DNA of 64,000 nucleotides from Crambe crambe (lineage: Eukaryota; Porifera; Demospongiae; Poecilosclerida; Crambeidae): contig OZ004583.1 in NCBI GenBank assembly GCA_963924555.1, forward strand, positions 1,521,501 through 1,585,500. Direction: 5' to 3'. Of the stretch, positions 11,302 to 32,227 are shown in pieces. How positions within the stretch are numbered: the first letter of the stretch is position 1; every line of letters starts with the position of its first letter. The notes under the pieces were generated by a model, which was not told where the DNA came from, made no database searches, and saw nothing but the letters and a program-made list of their open reading frames with translations. Made by a program: the position numbers and the translations under genes.

Positions 11302-11787
11302 CTCTCAAACCTAGGACAAACCTATTTTGCTGAGTTAGCGATTATCTATAATTTTATCAAGTAGGTGTGGCCGGCCGGCCAGCTAGGCGGGGTCTGACGT
11401 CATGACAACGTCGTCATGGGCGTGGTCTGATAACACACCCCATGATCGTCCGGTCACATTGTCGTCGTAGGTGAACAAAACTAGATTCCTTGAAGGTTAC
11501 ATGGGCTTCTCGATTTCCCATTACGCCGTCTTCTTGATGCCAACTTCAAAGTCCCACTGCAAAAAGACATACAAGAAGAAGTTCTCTCTCAAGAAATCTA
11601 AAAAAGGGAAAAAGACAGGTGAGTAGCTTTTAATCCTGACTTTTATAGTAGCAAAATAAACATTCAAGAGTGCTACCATTGGTGAATTCATGAAATTAGT
11701 TAGGAAACTGGTAAATGTCCAGATATTCTGAATTTCTGGATATTTTATGACCAATTACCCTATAATTAATAATTTTTAGAATAAAAG
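11302..11787. promoter_or_regulatory. Bidirectional promoter between KIN17 and LKR, with CRE
   Basis: The two genes start head-to-head. A perfect palindromic CRE, TGACGTCA, is at 11395-11402, in a GC-richer patch containing CCGGCCGGCC and followed by related ACGTCGTCATGG copies. CRE sites near the start are the classic target of CREB/ATF factors; use here is inference. Confidence 0.6.
11501..11618 (+). other. Probable LKR 5' leader exon with an upstream ORF
   Basis: An ATG at 11501 opens a Lys-rich reading frame (MGFSISHYAVFL...) that ends at a good donor (ACAG/GTGAGT, after 11618). Splicing to the acceptor TTTTTAG/AATAAAAG just before the LKR ATG would close the frame after one more codon at TAA, giving an upstream ORF of about 40 codons. 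It could instead be a separate micropeptide. I do not recognise the peptide. Confidence 0.35.
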
Positions 11788-14700
11788 ATGCTTTGTGCAA
11801 AGTTCTGGACAAGGATCCATCTTCCTCTGAGCCCCACCCACTGCGGGCATGGCATTTTTTCCAGGCCTTCTAGCTCTGCTGCTCTGAAGGGGAAAGTTCT
11901 TGCTATTCGTAGAGAGGAGAGCAGTGTGTGGGAAAGAAGAGCTCCTCTTGCTCCAGCACATGTCCAGGCTTTAGTAAAAGACGGGATAAAGGTCAATATT
12001 TAATAATATAATGTGCATTTTGGGGATGACTGTATAATTATTCTCCCTGACACAGAGAGATATGTTTCTCAATTACAGTTATCGACTTTAACTGCTAAAT
12101 ACATCTTAGCTTTGTCCATTGCTATACAGTTCTTTTGCACAGGAAGTCAGGCTGCCATCTATGGGATACTTTTTGCAGATTCTTGCAAGGAGCCAGGCCT
12201 TCTTTCTGTTACACAATTGTGTAGCTTCTGTGGTTAACTGCATGTATGTCTTGGTCTTCCTGGGTCTTTAGAAATCGAAGGAAACAGGAATGAGACTGAA
12301 GTATTTCTACATTTCCTTATGCATGCCATGCAGGTATTAGTGCAACCATCTAATCGTCGGGCCTTTTCCATGCGAGAGTATGAGAAGGAAGGAGCCATCA
12401 TAACTGAGGACATTTCAGGGGCAGATACAATTGTTGGTAAGTGGTAGAGGAGTGAGAAGAGTTGGAGACAATTAACAAAAGGCATTAACAGCCATGTGAC
12501 TTCTATTGAAGTCTTCTTTCGTATACATTAGGTGTAAAGCAACCTCCAATAGAGAACCTGATAGCAGACAAGACCTATGTCTTCTTTTCCCACACCATCA
12601 AGGCACAACCTGACAACATGCCACTGCTGGATGCTGTTCTGGATAAGGTGAGGGCAACTATTCTATTATTGTGGACAGACAATGATATAGCACTACAGCA
12701 TGTTTCCGCACCTTTGCCTTGCAAAGTCAGAGGTCTTAAAACCACAGTTGACACAGTGTACATTGATTTCTTTGAGCTACAGTAGTTTGCAGAACAGTTG
12801 TCATGCATCAGGCAGGGATAGGTGGTGGCTTTGAAGTATTTGTGGCTGGGGAACAATAAAATGTTTTCATAGCCCTATTGTTCTTAGCCACTAGCTACTC
12901 CAGAGCCACTGCCTATCTCTGACTTATGCATGACAACTGTTCTGCAAACTACTGTAGAGAATACCAAAACTACTGTAGAGAATACCAAAACTACTGTAGA
13001 GAATACCAAAACTACTGTAGAGAATACCAAAACTACTGTAGAGAATACCAAAACTACTGTAGAGAATACCAAAACTACTGTAGAGAATACCAAAACTACT
13101 GTAGAGAATACCAAAACTACCAGTTCACCAAATTGTTTTCATTTCAGGGTATTCGATTGGTTGACTATGAGTGCATCTTGGATGAGAATCGCCGCAGGAT
13201 TGTTGCCTTTGGGAAATATGCAGGGGTGTGTGGCATGATCAACATCCTCCATGGACTGGGAATCAGACTGCTAGCCCTTGGACACCACACCCCTTTCATG
13301 GTAGGTGGGATCAGTGGGTGGGATGGGGGTATGTGGCATGATCAAGGGAAAATTGAAGTGGTGAGGCCTTAGCTACATGTAAAATTAGTTGTGACCACGC
13401 AGGTGCAAACAAGCACACCATCTAGGGGGTCTGGGGGCATGCCCCCCCCCCCCCAAGGAAAATCATGGGGCGTCTTATAGATTCAATCTGGGATACAAAT
13501 ACCCTGTGCGCAGAGTCAACCCATGCCAGTGGCTAAAATATTTATCATTGTTTCAGAATCACAGTCATACACCAGCAACATGATTCACTTGATGAATCTT
13601 GCAACAAATGGCCCAAGCTTGAAATGCAACACACACAACTATTACCAGAGGTATAACCTCAGGCTAGAATGTAATTATGCTACAAGTTCCAGGTTTAGAC
13701 AGAGTGTAAAGGATTTGACAATTGTTTTCTACGCCCAGTACTGGGCTGACTGATAGCTGCTCAATAAGCAGATCATGATTCATAAATGGAGGAACCTATT
13801 GGGGGGACAGAGAAGCAGATTTTATGGATAATACCTCTCCAGATCTCTACCTCTATTTGAAGCTACTTACACTTATAGATTATTACTTGCCATGCATGCA
13901 GTAATTGAATTGATCACTACTATCTCATGTACAATACTTGTTAACACTACATGCAATCACTACAGTGTGCCATGTACTGCAAAGATTCAATAAAGGTTCT
14001 TATGCAATCACTACAGTGCCATGTAGTGCAAAGGTTTCAATAAAGTTTTTTTATGACCTCCCTAAGTAAACCTCCCTATTGGTCACCATAAGCAGTTTTC
14101 ACTGTTCTTGTTGTACTTTAGTACATAGGTTCAGCTCACAACTATGCCACGACCATTGCTGCCAAAGCTGCCATTTCTATTCTCGGACGAGAGATCGAGC
14201 ACTCCATGATCCCAGACTCCCTTGGACCAATGATCTTTACCTTCACTGGATCAGGAAATGTTTCACAGGTGACTTAAATATCAGGTATCTTTAACGGTGC
14301 TTCAGGGTTAGTGGGCCACTGTAATGATTAAAAGGGTTCTCCCCCCAATACTTTGAATACTCTGAGAGTAGGGGGTTCCACTGTATTCAATAGGTGTCAT
14401 ATAAAGCCACCACTACAGTAGTTATGGAGAGCTAAAGCTACTATGAATGGGAAGCTTAAAAGTATGAAGAAATAGCCAAAAATGAGTATCTAATGATTAT
14501 TTGATTGCTGTGTCAAGGATGAATGTATTATTATTATCTTCAGGGTGCTCAGGACATCTTTAGGGATCTTCCTCACGAATACGTCTCACCTGATTCCTTG
14601 AAAGATGTGGTGGAAAATGGCGGTGAGTATAATCATGAGTGAAATTTGGGATAAATATCACCTGTGTTGTAGTGAAAATGGCAAATCACACTTGGCATAT

Positions 14701-16361
14701 TGTAGATAATAATTTTAGGGCCTTCTTATCGATCTTGGCAGTCTTCATTCCATCACTGGACACTATACATTATACTAACAGAAACATCAGAAAAGTTCAA
14801 AATGTCACTTGGCTTTTTGATGACATTTGAGAATCAAAATGATTGTGTAGCAGTAGGAATCAAGCATTATGTGGCACAATTCAACAGCTACAAGAAGCAC
14901 AAGCAGGCAGGGCAGGGGGGCAGAAAAAACATTACAGCCCATACTAATGGCATCATAGTAAATTAGGGTGGCTTAGCAATGTGTAACCCAAGGCTACATC
15001 ATAATCATTTCACACACAATACTTTGTTCCAATTATTGGTGAGATAGGTAGTGAATCCTGTATAATTATGACCTGTATTATTATATTGATTTGTTTGCCA
15101 GACACACGCAAGGTGTATGGGACAGTGGTGGACAAGCATGACCACCTGGTGAGGATTGATGGGAGCAAGTACAGCGACCAAGACTTTGCTGCTAACCCCC
15201 ATCTCTACAGAGCCACTTTTAACGAGAAGGTTTGACCTTTAATACTACAATGTAACTTGCAATAGAACCCCCAATCACTCAAAATCCAGTAAAACCTCAG
15301 ATATTTGGAATCATGGTGATGTACATACTGTTGTAGATTTCAAGGTTTTCAAGCAGCACTTCAAAATCACCTACAAAATTTTGTGCCAATCACTGATCCT
15401 TTTCAGTAATCTCTTTTCTCTTTCCCCTCCAGATAGCTCCCTACACGACGTGTCTGGTAAATGGAGTATTTTGGGCCCCTGGAACCCCTCGCTTGATCAC
15501 TAAAAAGGAGTCGCGTGACCTGCACCCCTCGACATTCAACAGTGATGACCTGAAATACCAGGGGGTTCCCCAGCTGCCTCAGAGACTGCTGGCCATTGCT
15601 GACATTTCCAACGATTTCAACGTGAGTTCTCGCCCCTAATTAGGTGGGTGGGGATGCCTTGCCCCTTATTTGGTGGGTGGGGCGTACATCATGTACCTCT
15701 GAGAGAGCGGAAGATAAGTCTTCATTCCTTCTATGCAGGGATCACTTGAATTCGTTACCTTCAACACTACTATTGACAATCCTTTTATCCTCTACAATGC
15801 TCACACTGGGCAGATCTCCAATGAGTAAGTGTTTTACATGCTTCAAACTTAACTAACATACATTATGTGTGTGCTGCTAATAATATTACGCAATGGTGGT
15901 GATTGTTGTTGACTTTTTGCAGTATTTCTGGCAACGGGATCTTGTTCATGTCAGTGGACAACTTACCAGCACAAGTACCTCGTGAGTCCACAGAGTACTT
16001 TGGATCGAAGCTCCTCCCACTCATGCACGACTGTGTGAGTATCAAGGGGGGGGGGGGGGGGGGGGGGGGTGCCTGACATTCTAGCATTATAGTGGAATGT
16101 GGACACACTTTTAGTATATTCTTTATTGAGGTATTTGTCCTCTTTTGGAGTGTCTTAGTATCCTATGATTGTAATTGTACACAGTTGATGTTGAATGGTG
16201 AGCAGAGACTGGCGGATTGCAGAATTGGTGAAGCTGTAAAGAATGCAGTCCTAGCATTCAACGGTGATTTGACGGAGCGTTTCAGCTATATCAGCAGCAT
16301 GCGAGGAGGTGGCACAGAAGACTCACAAAATGGCTCAAATGCACTGAAAGACTTGATGTAA
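11788..16361 (+). CDS. AASS: Lysine-ketoglutarate reductase, monofunctional (N-terminal half of AASS)
   Basis: Eleven in-frame exons give 497 aa: 11788-11991, 12334-12436, 12532-12647, 13148-13300, 14122-14268, 14544-14622, 15102-15229, 15433-15621, 15739-15824, 15923-16034, 16185-16361. The first about 35 residues ([20 protein letters not shown]...) are basic and hydroxylated, like a mitochondrial presequence. Conserved LKR blocks follow: [79 protein letters not shown] and [11 protein letters not shown]. The enzyme condenses lysine and 2-oxoglutarate to saccharopine in mitochondria. In known animals LKR is fused to saccharopine dehydrogenase; here a TAA follows the linker helix ([13 protein letters not shown]...) and SLC35E3 starts 450 bp on. 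The donor of exon 1 (GTCAAT) is weak, though the frame supports it. Confidence 0.92.
12770..13118. repeat. Inverted repeat plus 21-bp minisatellite in LKR intron 3
   Basis: Arms at about 12774-12850 and 12890-12960 are imperfect reverse complements (shared core CATGACAACTGTTCTGCAAA). The right arm runs directly into eight near-identical 21-bp units (ACTACTGTAGAGAATACCAA plus one A) to 13118. The period is divisible by three, so the array stays open on both strands. It lies 30 bp upstream of the exon 4 acceptor. Confidence 0.85.
13301..14121 (+). other. LKR intron 4, no gene seen
   Basis: About 820 bp of AT-rich intron with a short poly-C run (13441-13454) and a duplicated phrase (ATGCAATCACTACAGTG at about 13954 and 14001). 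No coding signal. Confidence 0.6.
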
Positions 16362-16782: not shown

Positions 16783-19793
<3,011 letters not shown>

Positions 19794-20429: not shown

Positions 20430-23400
20430 ATCAGCCAGCAATAATTGCCTGGTCTCATGCATAATCAGGGTAGAGGGACAGTTTCAACAGATAATAGATA
20501 AGAGATGATCTCACTCTCTCTTCAGATGCTAGGGATACAGGAGAATAGTTTCTTCTTTAAACAGAAGAGGCAGAAGAGATTCCAGCAGCGTCGGGTAAGG
20601 AAATTTGACAACAGCTACTCTCTCTTTGGAGACAAGAGGGAAGGGATTCTACTGTTTCCAGGAGAAAAAGACAACGCAAGTGTGATCACAGGGGGAGGGG
20701 CTAGCATTTGGAGGAATAAGGATAACGGAAGCATCATCACAGCTGGGGGAGTGTGGAGGTCCACAGAGAGCAAATTGGGAGTCACACGTCCTGCAACTGC
20801 AAGTATGATCAATTCAGATAGTGAAACACATTGCAGATGCTTAATCCTGATTAAAGATCAGAGAGAAGTGTCCTGAGTAGAGAAGCGTCCTGATTAGAGA
20901 GGTGTCCTGATTAGAGAGGTGTTCTGAATAGAGAGGTGTCCTGATTAGAGAGGTGTTCTGAATAGAGAGGTGTCCTGATTAGAGAGGTGTCCTGATTAGA
21001 GAGGTGTCCTGATTAGAGAGGTGTCCTGATTAGAGAGGTGTCTTGATTAGGGTGGTGTCCTGATTAGAGAGGTGTCCTGATTAGAGAGGTGTCCTGATTA
21101 GAGAGGTGTCTTGATTAGGGTGGTGTCCTGATTAGAGTGTTGTCCTGATTATAAGATGTGTAGGTTTAATTTTTCAATTGATTATGTCATTATAGCTAAT
21201 GATGTCTAATTTTAGTTACTCACTGTACAGGTAATGGAATTATTTTTTACCGTCTATTTATAGGTCGTAGGGTTTCTCTGGTTGATCCAGCGGTGGTATT
21301 TCCATCAATTGACTTGAGTGGACCAAGATTAGTAACATCAGATCAGCAAGTAGAAGAGGCCAACGAAACTCATTCCATTCTCAGCGAGAAGAAGCTCGAG
21401 TTCTTGCAAGAAGTCGAAGAGAAATCAAGCTCCAGGAAGAAGGTATACAAGTTAGGCTCCATTTGGAATCTAAGTGAAGCAAAATTCGCCTCAAGTGGAA
21501 TTCTGTCTAAACTGAGCAAAGCTTTAGTCATAGTTGAGGAAGACCACTTTGAGGAGATTATCTTGCCAGTAGATCTGGTGAGTGTTCTCTCCCAAAACTA
21601 CGAAGAGCTTGTGATCAATACCGTTATAGAGAAACGAGATTGGCAGACAGACTGCTATCACGATTTCCATTTCCAGTCCAGAAACAAGCATCCTTTTCTC
21701 ACGAACCTTCCCAAGGAACCAGTCCAAGCTGAGAACGCAGCAGCAGCACTCAGTTCTGTTATAGCTAATCAACAAGAAGAAAAGGTCTCAAAGAAACCAG
21801 CTCAAAGCAACAGTAACAAGAGAGGAAAGAGAGTCAGAATGAGTACAGAAGCTAAGGAGGATCCTGACAAGTTCAGGTCTCGGCCCCAAACGGCTAGAAG
21901 CATTGCATCCAATTTTTCCTTCAAATCGGACTTATCAGAGGATGGCAAGGAGTCTACGTTCACCTCTGACTTGGATCGCCTGCCTCCCGAGCTTCTACGT
22001 CCAGGCATCCTCCAGTACAGACGGGAAAGCACAAGGCCAAAGATAACCAGTAAGACACCGCAGACAAGGAGGGAGAAAGCTCGAAATCTACTCAAGGAGA
22101 GAGATGAGCAATTGAAGAGAGTAAAAAGTGAGGAAATGCAAACGTTTATAATACTTCATGGCATAATAGTGGTTGGAGCAAATCATAGAATTCTAGAATC
22201 CATTAATTTTAGTTACCCTTGGGCTTAACTATCTTTCCCCACCAGCATAGTAGTCATGTTTGGACTGACCTTATCAGTTATACAGAGTTGGCTGCCTTTT
22301 ATTGCATCATCATTATTTTTATGTTTCCAAACATCCACTAGCCAAAGTCCGACCACCCTCAGCAAAGGGGATGAAGGAGAAGAGACCAGCCACAGCCAAG
22401 GGGACCAAGGAGAAGAGACCAGCCACAGCCAGGCAGACTAGCCGTACTCTCCATGAGGACTCTGAAGATGCAGGTAAAACTAGCAACATAGTGCTAGTGC
22501 TATCACCATAGGGTCTTCCCCTTTATGCATTTTATCATGCAGGATATTATGAGTGTAGGGTTCATTTATTACACAGGGTTTCCCCCTTTAGAACCTTTAT
22601 AGGGGGTTTCCCCTTTGCATTACATTGATTGGGAAATTCTCACAGGAGAAATAAGCTTTCACATTCTTTAATAAGGAATAATTTCCCACTGAATGGTTGT
22701 CCCAAATGATAACAGTTGGGCTACCATCTGACTATTATGTATGGACTTAGAGTTCAATTATGCATCAACAGTAAGCAACTAGTTAATGGAATAGTCATAG
22801 TTCAGTTCCTGCTCTGTGTTGGAGTAATACTCTTCTGCATACTTGTGTTCATTGGAGGGCTCATCCCTCTCTCGGTACTTATAGCCCCTGGCAATACACG
22901 CATACGTGATGAGAGTTAGCAACCCGATGGCTATGTTTATAAGGTAGTAGCAAAACCCGCAACTTGGGAAGGAATACGGCCAGGATAGGGAAAATGGCAG
23001 TGTCAGTAAAGTTGCCATTAACTGAAAGAGTCCCTTGATGGCATACCACAGTCCGATTAGCATCCCCTTCATGGAGTGAGGGCTCTGGGAACAGATGAAC
23101 TCGAAGGAACCAATGTAGATCAGCATGTTCGAGAGAGCCGAGAGGGTGTGTTGCAGTATCAGAGACGTGGTAGCTTGGAAAGGAGTAAGTAGCTGAAATA
23201 ATGACGTGTCATTTTCATTCGTTTGGAACATGCATGGAATTGAGGTGTTCTTGGAATGGACCACTGTGTCCACAGTGAAAGTGACGATTAGGGACATTAT
23301 AACCAAAAGCATACCGATTCCCATTCTTTTCAGCATCCCTGGAATGTAGTAGGAGACGAAGGGACGGATGAGGCAAACGTAGAGAGGAATAAAAATTATA

Positions 23401-30770: not shown

Positions 30771-32227
30771 AGCTTAAACACTGATTGGATACATGCATCG
30801 CTGTTATCCACCCCTCCCCCTCCCCCTTCCCTTTCCTCTCCCTTTCCTCTCCCTATCTCTGCAGAGAACCAGTGAGACCTTGAAGATTTTACAATACACA
30901 CACCAAGTAATATAACACACAGTCATAAGAGAGAAGTAGCTACGTCGTATAGCTGAATAAAAAATTATATGATTTAGAGGAATGTCAGGATAATAACTAC
31001 TACAGTATACTACACAGTATACTACATAGTATACTACAAAGGATATCTACATAGGATACCTGTAACCACAGAGCACTGCATTCAGGTCAGTGGCGTATCT
31101 AGCGAGGTGCTCAGGGTGCTCGAGCACCCCCCTCAGCTGCTAGCTAGCTTTTTCAGTAGGCTCGCTTCTATAGTTATCTATCCTAAAGCTGATCATCTAG
31201 CAAGCAGTTTAATATTACACTCACAGAAAGAGCAGCATTGGGTCAGAGTTCAATAATCACATCGGTGAGGCGCATGCGCCCGGCACGTTTTTACCCTAAA
31301 TAATGCACATCTCGATCTAAAATTTCTGTGCTTCTTTATTCAGCCTGCACCTCACTTCTGATCCTGTACGCTGGTAAAGTAGGGTAGCTAATACTTAGGC
31401 CATCATCTGGGTATAATAAAGAGGATGTGGTTAATCAAAAGTGGGCGTGGTTCGAAAAAATTTCGCGCGCGCTAAGCGCGCGCATTCTCTATCTAGCACC
31501 CTCCTAGCTCAAATTCTAGATACGCCACTGCAGGTGCTTCTAAAACAAAGAAACTTGAATTCTGGTGGCTTAAAAATTAGGCAGCATTCTATTCCAGTAT
31601 TTCATTCCCTATAATAGCCACATGCCCTATAACCGGCAGCCTGTCGTGGTTACTATGCAACCTGTAACTATATAACCTATAATAATTCTACACAGTAAAA
31701 AATCTACAACTTGTTAACAGTCCATAACAGAACGAAACCCTAGGCACCGAATTGATCTGTAGGCAGTCCGTGGGGCAGCACGTGTCCAAATATGGACCTG
31801 TTACAGGCCTGAGTCCCATGTACAGGTCATAACTGGTATGTGGGGCAGTCCAGACCTGTGGATCATGTAGTAATGCCTTTGTCCACTGTAGGTTGGTTGT
31901 CAGGAAGGTTAGGGGAAATAACCATCGTCCTATGGTTTACACAACTGCATAGGACATACAGGTTTCTATTTCTCATTCCTTGTGGACAATCATCCTGAAA
32001 TCTGCAGTACCACTTCTGGGGAATACTACGTGGTCTGTGGGGTTAGGCTACATTGCCATGGTTATTATTAATCAAACCACACAATGATAACTTAAAAAAA
32101 CAGTCTACAATAGCTCTAACATCAGAGAAATAAAGAACAAAGAAAAACAAATGAACAAAGACTAGAGCATTAGCATGTTCAAATTATTGCTACAAAAATG
32201 ATTACGTTAGCTATAAAATTATAATAG
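30771..32227. other. Intergenic region downstream of the C3orf20-like gene
   Basis: No coding signal. It holds a pyrimidine-rich stretch (30812-30860), GTATACTACA tandem copies (30998-31040), a hAT-like element (31088-31530) and the left part of a segmental duplication whose partner begins at about 34270. Confidence 0.6.
31088..31530. mobile_element. Non-autonomous hAT-like DNA element with an empty paralogous site
   Basis: Ends CAGTGGCGTATCTAG and CTAGATACGCCACTG bound 443 bp, flanked by CAGGT on both sides (31083-31087, 31531-31535). The paralogous duplicated segment at about 34345-34360 reads GCATTCAGGTGTTTC with a single CAGGT and no insert, which fixes the borders and the duplication. 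CAGTGGCG-type ends are common in hAT-group elements; those usually duplicate 8 bp, so the superfamily is tentative. It contains GCGCGCGCTAAGCGCGCGC and no ORF. Confidence 0.8.

Follow-up and report, generated by a model that had tools for sequence, protein, structure and literature searches.

Separate genes for LKR and SDH

The 64-kb window analysed here, the whole stretch of sponge DNA under study (Crambe crambe, assembly GCA_963924555.1, contig OZ004583.1, hereafter C5; C5:1521501-1585500), harbors a gene for lysine-ketoglutarate reductase (LKR). Its partner, saccharopine dehydrogenase (SDH), is encoded by a second, complete gene on the same contig outside the window, and the two do not lie in one reading frame as they do in bifunctional animal AASS. 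The features are listed below in window positions unless C5 is named; where an intron coincides with a listed boundary of human AASS, the human coding position (c.) is given.

11788-16361, plus strand: LKR gene, 11 exons, intact
11788..11991, plus strand: LKR exon 1, with the ATG and presequence-like residues 1-36 (11788-11895)
12334..12436, plus strand: LKR exon 2
12532..12647, plus strand: LKR exon 3, encoding K105, H123, K126 and Q128; 3' intron equals human c.387
13148..13300, plus strand: LKR exon 4
14122..14268, plus strand: LKR exon 5; 3' intron equals human c.687
14544..14622, plus strand: LKR exon 6
15102..15229, plus strand: LKR exon 7, encoding the altered NADPH contacts D278, K279 and F296; 3' intron equals human c.894
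15433..15621, plus strand: LKR exon 8
15739..15824, plus strand: LKR exon 9
15923..16034, plus strand: LKR exon 10; 3' intron equals human c.1278
16185..16361, plus strand: LKR exon 11, the last, with the C-terminal helix, a 16-codon tail and the TAA
16312..16313, plus strand: counterpart, at codon 482, of the interdomain intron of human AASS (c.1406, phase 2), placed with the alignment extended by two residues
16810..19787, plus strand: SLC35E3-like transporter, the gene next 3' of LKR (Pfam TPT, E 4.2e-14), which sets the boundary of the LKR gene
C5:1662692-1671278, minus strand, outside the window: SDH gene, 12 coding exons, own start codon

All ten introns of the LKR gene are of the GT-AG type, and splicing yields a single frame of 497 codons from the ATG at 11788 to the TAA at 16359-16361. 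The product, 51% identical to the LKR domain of human AASS, matches the human LKR structures 8dda and 8e8u (E 2.3e-149 and 9.4e-149) over query residues 35-480; the LKR blocks are intact, as the initial annotation had stated. The match runs through the C-terminal helix up to its end, with conservation as far as human residue 467, and is followed by the 16-codon tail and the TAA, which agrees with the annotated stop just after this helix. According to PMC9490328, the helix extends into the neighbouring subunit, and a human LKR construct of residues 21-470 is active while one of residues 21-451 is inactive; the helix required in the human enzyme is present to its end in the sponge protein. The mitochondrial-type presequence claimed in the same annotation agrees with the composition of the leader: residues 1-36 contain five K/R and no D/E, the first acidic residue being 43. 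On these grounds the leader resembles a mitochondrial presequence, and LKR is probably imported into mitochondria.

A profile of the saccharopine dehydrogenase C-terminal family, run against the whole genome (143,139,886 bases, 119 contigs), gave four exon matches, none of them outside the stretch at 1,663-1,667 kb of C5. The gene reconstructed there has 11 introns, all GT-AG, and encodes a 469-residue protein that matches the solved SDH of human AASS (5l76, E 1e-119, 46% identity), yeast Lys9 (2axq, 8.3e-102, 42%) and a Magnaporthe SDH (1e5l, 6.9e-96, 40%). Pfam recognises both SDH domains in the spliced protein (E 2.9e-81 and 1.8e-25); the second of these, PF03435, gives no match when the genome is searched exon by exon. 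The LKR and SDH genes lie on opposite strands of one 9.49-Mb contig, convergent and 124,831 bp apart from stop to stop. The proposal that SDH cannot be encoded downstream therefore holds for the adjacent DNA, where the SLC35E3-like frame opens with an ATG at 16810, 448 bp beyond the LKR stop (the annotation gave 450 bp), but fails for the genome, with the SDH gene 124.8 kb away. An assembly break at 16.4-16.8 kb, named in that annotation as the danger to its reading, was looked for: there is no N in the window, nor in the 165,000 bases that reach from it past the SDH gene.

The genome was also searched with both proteins. Eleven of 11 matches to LKR and 12 of 12 matches to SDH were their own exons, and no second, full-length AASS turned up; of the two things that the initial annotation proposed to seek, a stand-alone SDH and a second AASS, only the former was found here. 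So far as the present assembly and protein searches reach, a hidden full-length AASS is excluded. Loss of SDH was considered and rejected: the stand-alone gene is complete and its substrate arginines are kept.

Several other features lie in or beside the LKR gene. Intron 3 carries at window 12777-13120 a 62-nt inverted repeat whose arms, at 12777-12838 and 12896-12957, are 89% complementary. It adjoins a 21-bp unit present in 8.3 perfect copies (12946-13120), the whole resembling a foldback element that bears a satellite tail. On the 5' side, a lysine-rich ATG frame of 39 codons (window 11501-11618) ends at a GT donor; with splicing to the AG at 11778-11779, this frame would run to a TAA lying three bases ahead of the LKR start and form an upstream open reading frame. 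In this direction, on the minus strand, there is also a KIN17-like gene (PF25095, E 2.8e-9).

Upstream of SDH, a frame unrelated to it begins about 300 bp from its ATG on the other strand. The SDH leader (C5:about 1671398-1671526) holds about 42 open codons, several of them basic, if spliced at an AG-GTGTGTG donor; this stretch is in frame with the SDH start and contains no ATG. An AlaDh_PNT_N domain (E 5e-43) was found at C21:4055779-4056180 within an uninterrupted frame of 1040 codons, possibly a nicotinamide nucleotide transhydrogenase, and was not returned by the LKR protein search.

Kinship of both halves with human AASS

The published exon table of human AASS lists 15 boundaries within the coding sequence, seven further ones being unlisted inside two-exon amplicons (PMC3626681). 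Ten of the 21 introns in the two sponge genes coincide with listed human boundaries in both position and phase: four of ten in LKR (c.387, 687, 894 and 1278) and six of 11 in SDH (c.1655, 1875, 2016, 2184, 2280 and 2662). Four certainly differ from human (equivalents of c.168, 271, 1952 and 2550), and the remaining seven fall within the two-exon amplicons, for which the table does not give the human position. Random placement of introns produced at most three coincidences in 100,000 trials and, with phases kept, at most four in 100,000 (means 0.11 and 0.16, respectively).

For phylogenetic comparison, 320 pattern-matched stretches were taken from GTDB genomes; 209 of them encoded an SDH relative, and the best 80 were kept. 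An LKR was present in the same locus in 38 of these 80, the other 42 being without LKR within the flank read. The LKR tree (34 rows, with 32 of the 38 prokaryotic LKRs, six having been dropped with a read frame of less than 380 residues) groups the sponge protein with human at 100/100. SDH likewise groups with human, at 98/97 in a careful tree of 37 rows (33 of the 80 loci, hand-picked for spread) and with a Shimodaira-Hasegawa-like approximate likelihood ratio test value of 95 in a quick tree of 83 rows (79 of the 80 loci, L067 having been omitted by the program). In other databases, searches with single-protein patterns returned no relatives in genome contigs or viral contigs, the LKR alignment none in viral contigs, and the plasmid search distant bacterial matches only; in NCBIfam no family scored above its own cut-off. 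Sequence, tree and intron positions together establish both halves as orthologues of human AASS.

The residues that serve catalysis and bind saccharopine are retained. The six catalytic or saccharopine-contacting residues of human LKR (R39, K93, H111, K114, Q116 and R146; PMC13174811) are all present (R51, K105, H123, K126, Q128 and R158) and do not vary among the 32 aligned prokaryotic LKRs; the regulatory C414 of human LKR corresponds to Y427. Of the eight human SDH contacts for saccharopine and NADH (Y490, D512, I533, D604, P605, S653, R703 and R726; PMC13174811), six are identical (D41, D133, P134, S182, R237 and R260), while Y490 is replaced by F19 and I533 by V63; both substrate arginines and four of the six cofactor contacts are thus kept.

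Origin of the two-gene arrangement

In human AASS the interdomain intron (c.1406, phase 2) lies just 3' of the LKR C-terminal helix. At the equivalent site the sponge LKR frame reads through and stops after its 16-residue tail, and ahead of the first coding exon of SDH stands an AG acceptor, likewise of phase 2, that precedes V12 by 46 nt; the human distance to V483 is 40 nt, a difference of two codons. A split within the interdomain intron would account for this anatomy, although the match is suggestive only. At the RNA level, plants offer a precedent for breaks near this point: monofunctional LKR messages are reported to be polyadenylated in an intron and SDH messages to start in the interdomain (PMC3017810).

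The initial annotation had offered fission, an ancestral split or loss of SDH. With loss set aside by the SDH gene itself and an ancestral split the less likely of the other two, fission is best supported, because introns of AASS are common to both halves and because fused genes are reported from plants, animals and an oomycete; PMC3017810 gives LKR/SDH as fused in plants and animals and separate in fungi, and PMC2705460 includes an oomycete table that assigns one protein to both steps. We consider it probable that an ancestral fused AASS gene was split in two, with both enzymes still working. The break would have fallen in the intron separating LKR-coding from SDH-coding exons. The LKR half would have gained its stop by reading 16 codons past the old donor site, and the SDH half would have acquired a new promoter and start codon, with the 3' part of the interdomain intron surviving within its 5' leader; one half would also have been shifted and inverted by a rearrangement. 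LKR would then convert lysine and 2-oxoglutarate to saccharopine, and free SDH would convert saccharopine to glutamate and aminoadipate semialdehyde, the intermediate being handed from one protein to another, the situation of Lys1 and Lys9 in fungi, and not within one complex.

Several observations weigh against this history or against two working enzymes. None of the four human LKR residues that bind the adenosine part of NADPH (T224, S266, R267 and Y284; PMC13174811) is identical (T224 is S, and the others are D278, K279 and F296, respectively), a region in which the prokaryotic alignment is gapped; because of these changes, the cofactor use of LKR may differ from that of the human enzyme. 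ALDH7A1, the aminoadipate semialdehyde dehydrogenase that acts next, was not recognised among the four aldehyde dehydrogenase genes read, in a search that listed 15 matches and scored 11 of 52 candidates in a genome holding more such genes than these four. By structure matches, identities and tree, the closest kinship is not with the fungal Lys1/Lys9 type, but the rejection of a fungal affinity for SDH is borderline (approximately unbiased test, p 0.047), and several stretches of SDH look closer to fungal than to human SDH, the simplest reading being that human SDH changed more there. In the 83-row tree the human SDH branch is flagged as long, and fungal and animal SDH do not form one group. 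At the junction, three of the seven AGs within 120 nt before V12 have phase 2, and the same anatomy could also result if the fused gene had been formed by joining LKR, through splicing, to a free SDH gene at its leader intron. No relics of the lost halves were detected at E < 0.5 across the 165 kb, leaving no direct trace of the break.

Of the competing explanations, the one that survives best, although we regard it as rather unlikely, is a functional parting of the two enzymes, with LKR mitochondrial and SDH cytosolic, so that saccharopine would be exported or SDH would have another job. It draws on the presequence-like leader of LKR and on the SDH product, which has only nine residues ahead of its first Rossmann strand and no clear presequence, but it is countered by the retained substrate arginines of SDH and by the open basic leader without ATG that lies upstream of SDH.

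Less probable again is an original split, in which the animal ancestor had two genes already bearing these introns and the fusion came later, LKR being spliced onto the leader intron of SDH; the plant and oomycete fusions would then be separate events. LKR and SDH are indeed separate and adjacent in 38 of the best 80 prokaryotic loci, two of them from Heimdallarchaeota, and in none of the 38 do they form a single frame; two genes are also reported for fungi (PMC3017810), and the junction anatomy is compatible with either direction. However, with plants, animals and an oomycete all reported to carry the fused gene, this history would need fusion to have occurred several times independently, always with the halves in the same order.

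We find it hard to believe that the arrangement is an artefact, whether a misassembly or inversion that parted one fused gene or a case of two loci whose transcripts are joined. Both halves do lie within 125 kb on one contig, yet the 165 kb contain no N, LKR ends at a stop of its own and is followed after 448 bp by another gene, SDH starts at its own ATG and has an unrelated frame on the opposite strand about 300 bp upstream, and ordinary read-through is ruled out by the opposite strands. Horizontal transfer of one or both genes from another organism, to which the 42% identity of SDH to yeast Lys9 (near the 46% to human) and the weakly rejected fungal affinity might point, is scarcely credible and is contradicted by the ten introns, spread over both genes, whose positions are those of human AASS to the exact base, and by trees in which LKR and SDH both join human.

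A check for duplication between the flanks of the two genes found 39 stretches in common, of which the 15 longest look like dispersed repeats. A 472-bp repeat of 90% identity is common to window 31087-31530 and the SDH flank at C5:1678117-1678579; another repeat, at window 20845-21151, recurs in an SDH intron at C5:1664883-1665236. Elsewhere in the genome, C9:8658452-8681754 holds a cluster of cathepsin L-like exons, one of which is silicatein-like but has an active-site cysteine; silicatein alpha is its second-best solved match (E 5e-28), after fibroinase (3.2e-28), which agrees with a sponge source without proving one.

Significance and comparison with known systems

AASS is described as fused in animals, and an animal in which the two steps fall to separate proteins would demonstrate that the fusion is dispensable. 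A recent preprint speculates that the fusion stops saccharopine from diffusing away (PMC13174811), and excess saccharopine damages mitochondria according to PMC7253579; natural free-standing LKR and SDH would become available for comparison. If the split were common to all sponges, or original, it would be a character for the early animal tree, and if original, the AASS fusion would be younger than the branching of this lineage. In that case the state of AASS, fused or split, would count as a rare genomic change, and scoring it among ctenophores, sponges and cnidarians could test which animals were the first to branch off. No report of a split animal AASS was found in the literature searched, whose coverage of subscription journals is thin, making this weak evidence of absence.

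Human AASS (8dda, 8e8u and 5l76) shares with the sponge proteins both domains, the catalytic and saccharopine residues, the LKR C-terminal helix and ten intron positions; it differs in that the sponge has two genes and two proteins, changed NADPH adenosine contacts and Y427 in place of C414. The fungal Lys1 and Lys9 resemble the sponge pair in having one gene per step, and Lys9 of yeast is 42% identical to the sponge SDH. However, Lys1 is only a weak match to the sponge LKR (best E 2.7e-15, about 140 residues), and the SDH tree places the sponge SDH with human. Prokaryotic pairs, including the Heimdallarchaeota loci L075 and L076, also consist of separate frames, with LKR first in 36 of the 38 loci (slightly overlapping in L090, L099 and L103) and the order reversed in L048 and L096; unlike the sponge genes, they are adjacent and intronless, and their products are about 31-42% identical to the proteins described here.

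Plants come close in possessing monofunctional LKR and SDH messages and, in poplar, a monofunctional LKR gene (reported in PMC3017810 and in the title of Tang 2002), but plants retain the fused gene and the poplar LKR gene has a frameshift, whereas no fused gene was found in the sponge. A free SDH in an animal has a parallel in the monofunctional SDH message of mouse and human (Papes 1999, as cited in PMC7253579 and PMC3017810), and a short SDH isoform is mentioned in PMC12554910; the mouse and human message is, however, a product of the fused gene. Fission of a metabolic gene, in another pathway, has its precedent in the fused folate-synthesis genes of eukaryotes (PMC4224340).

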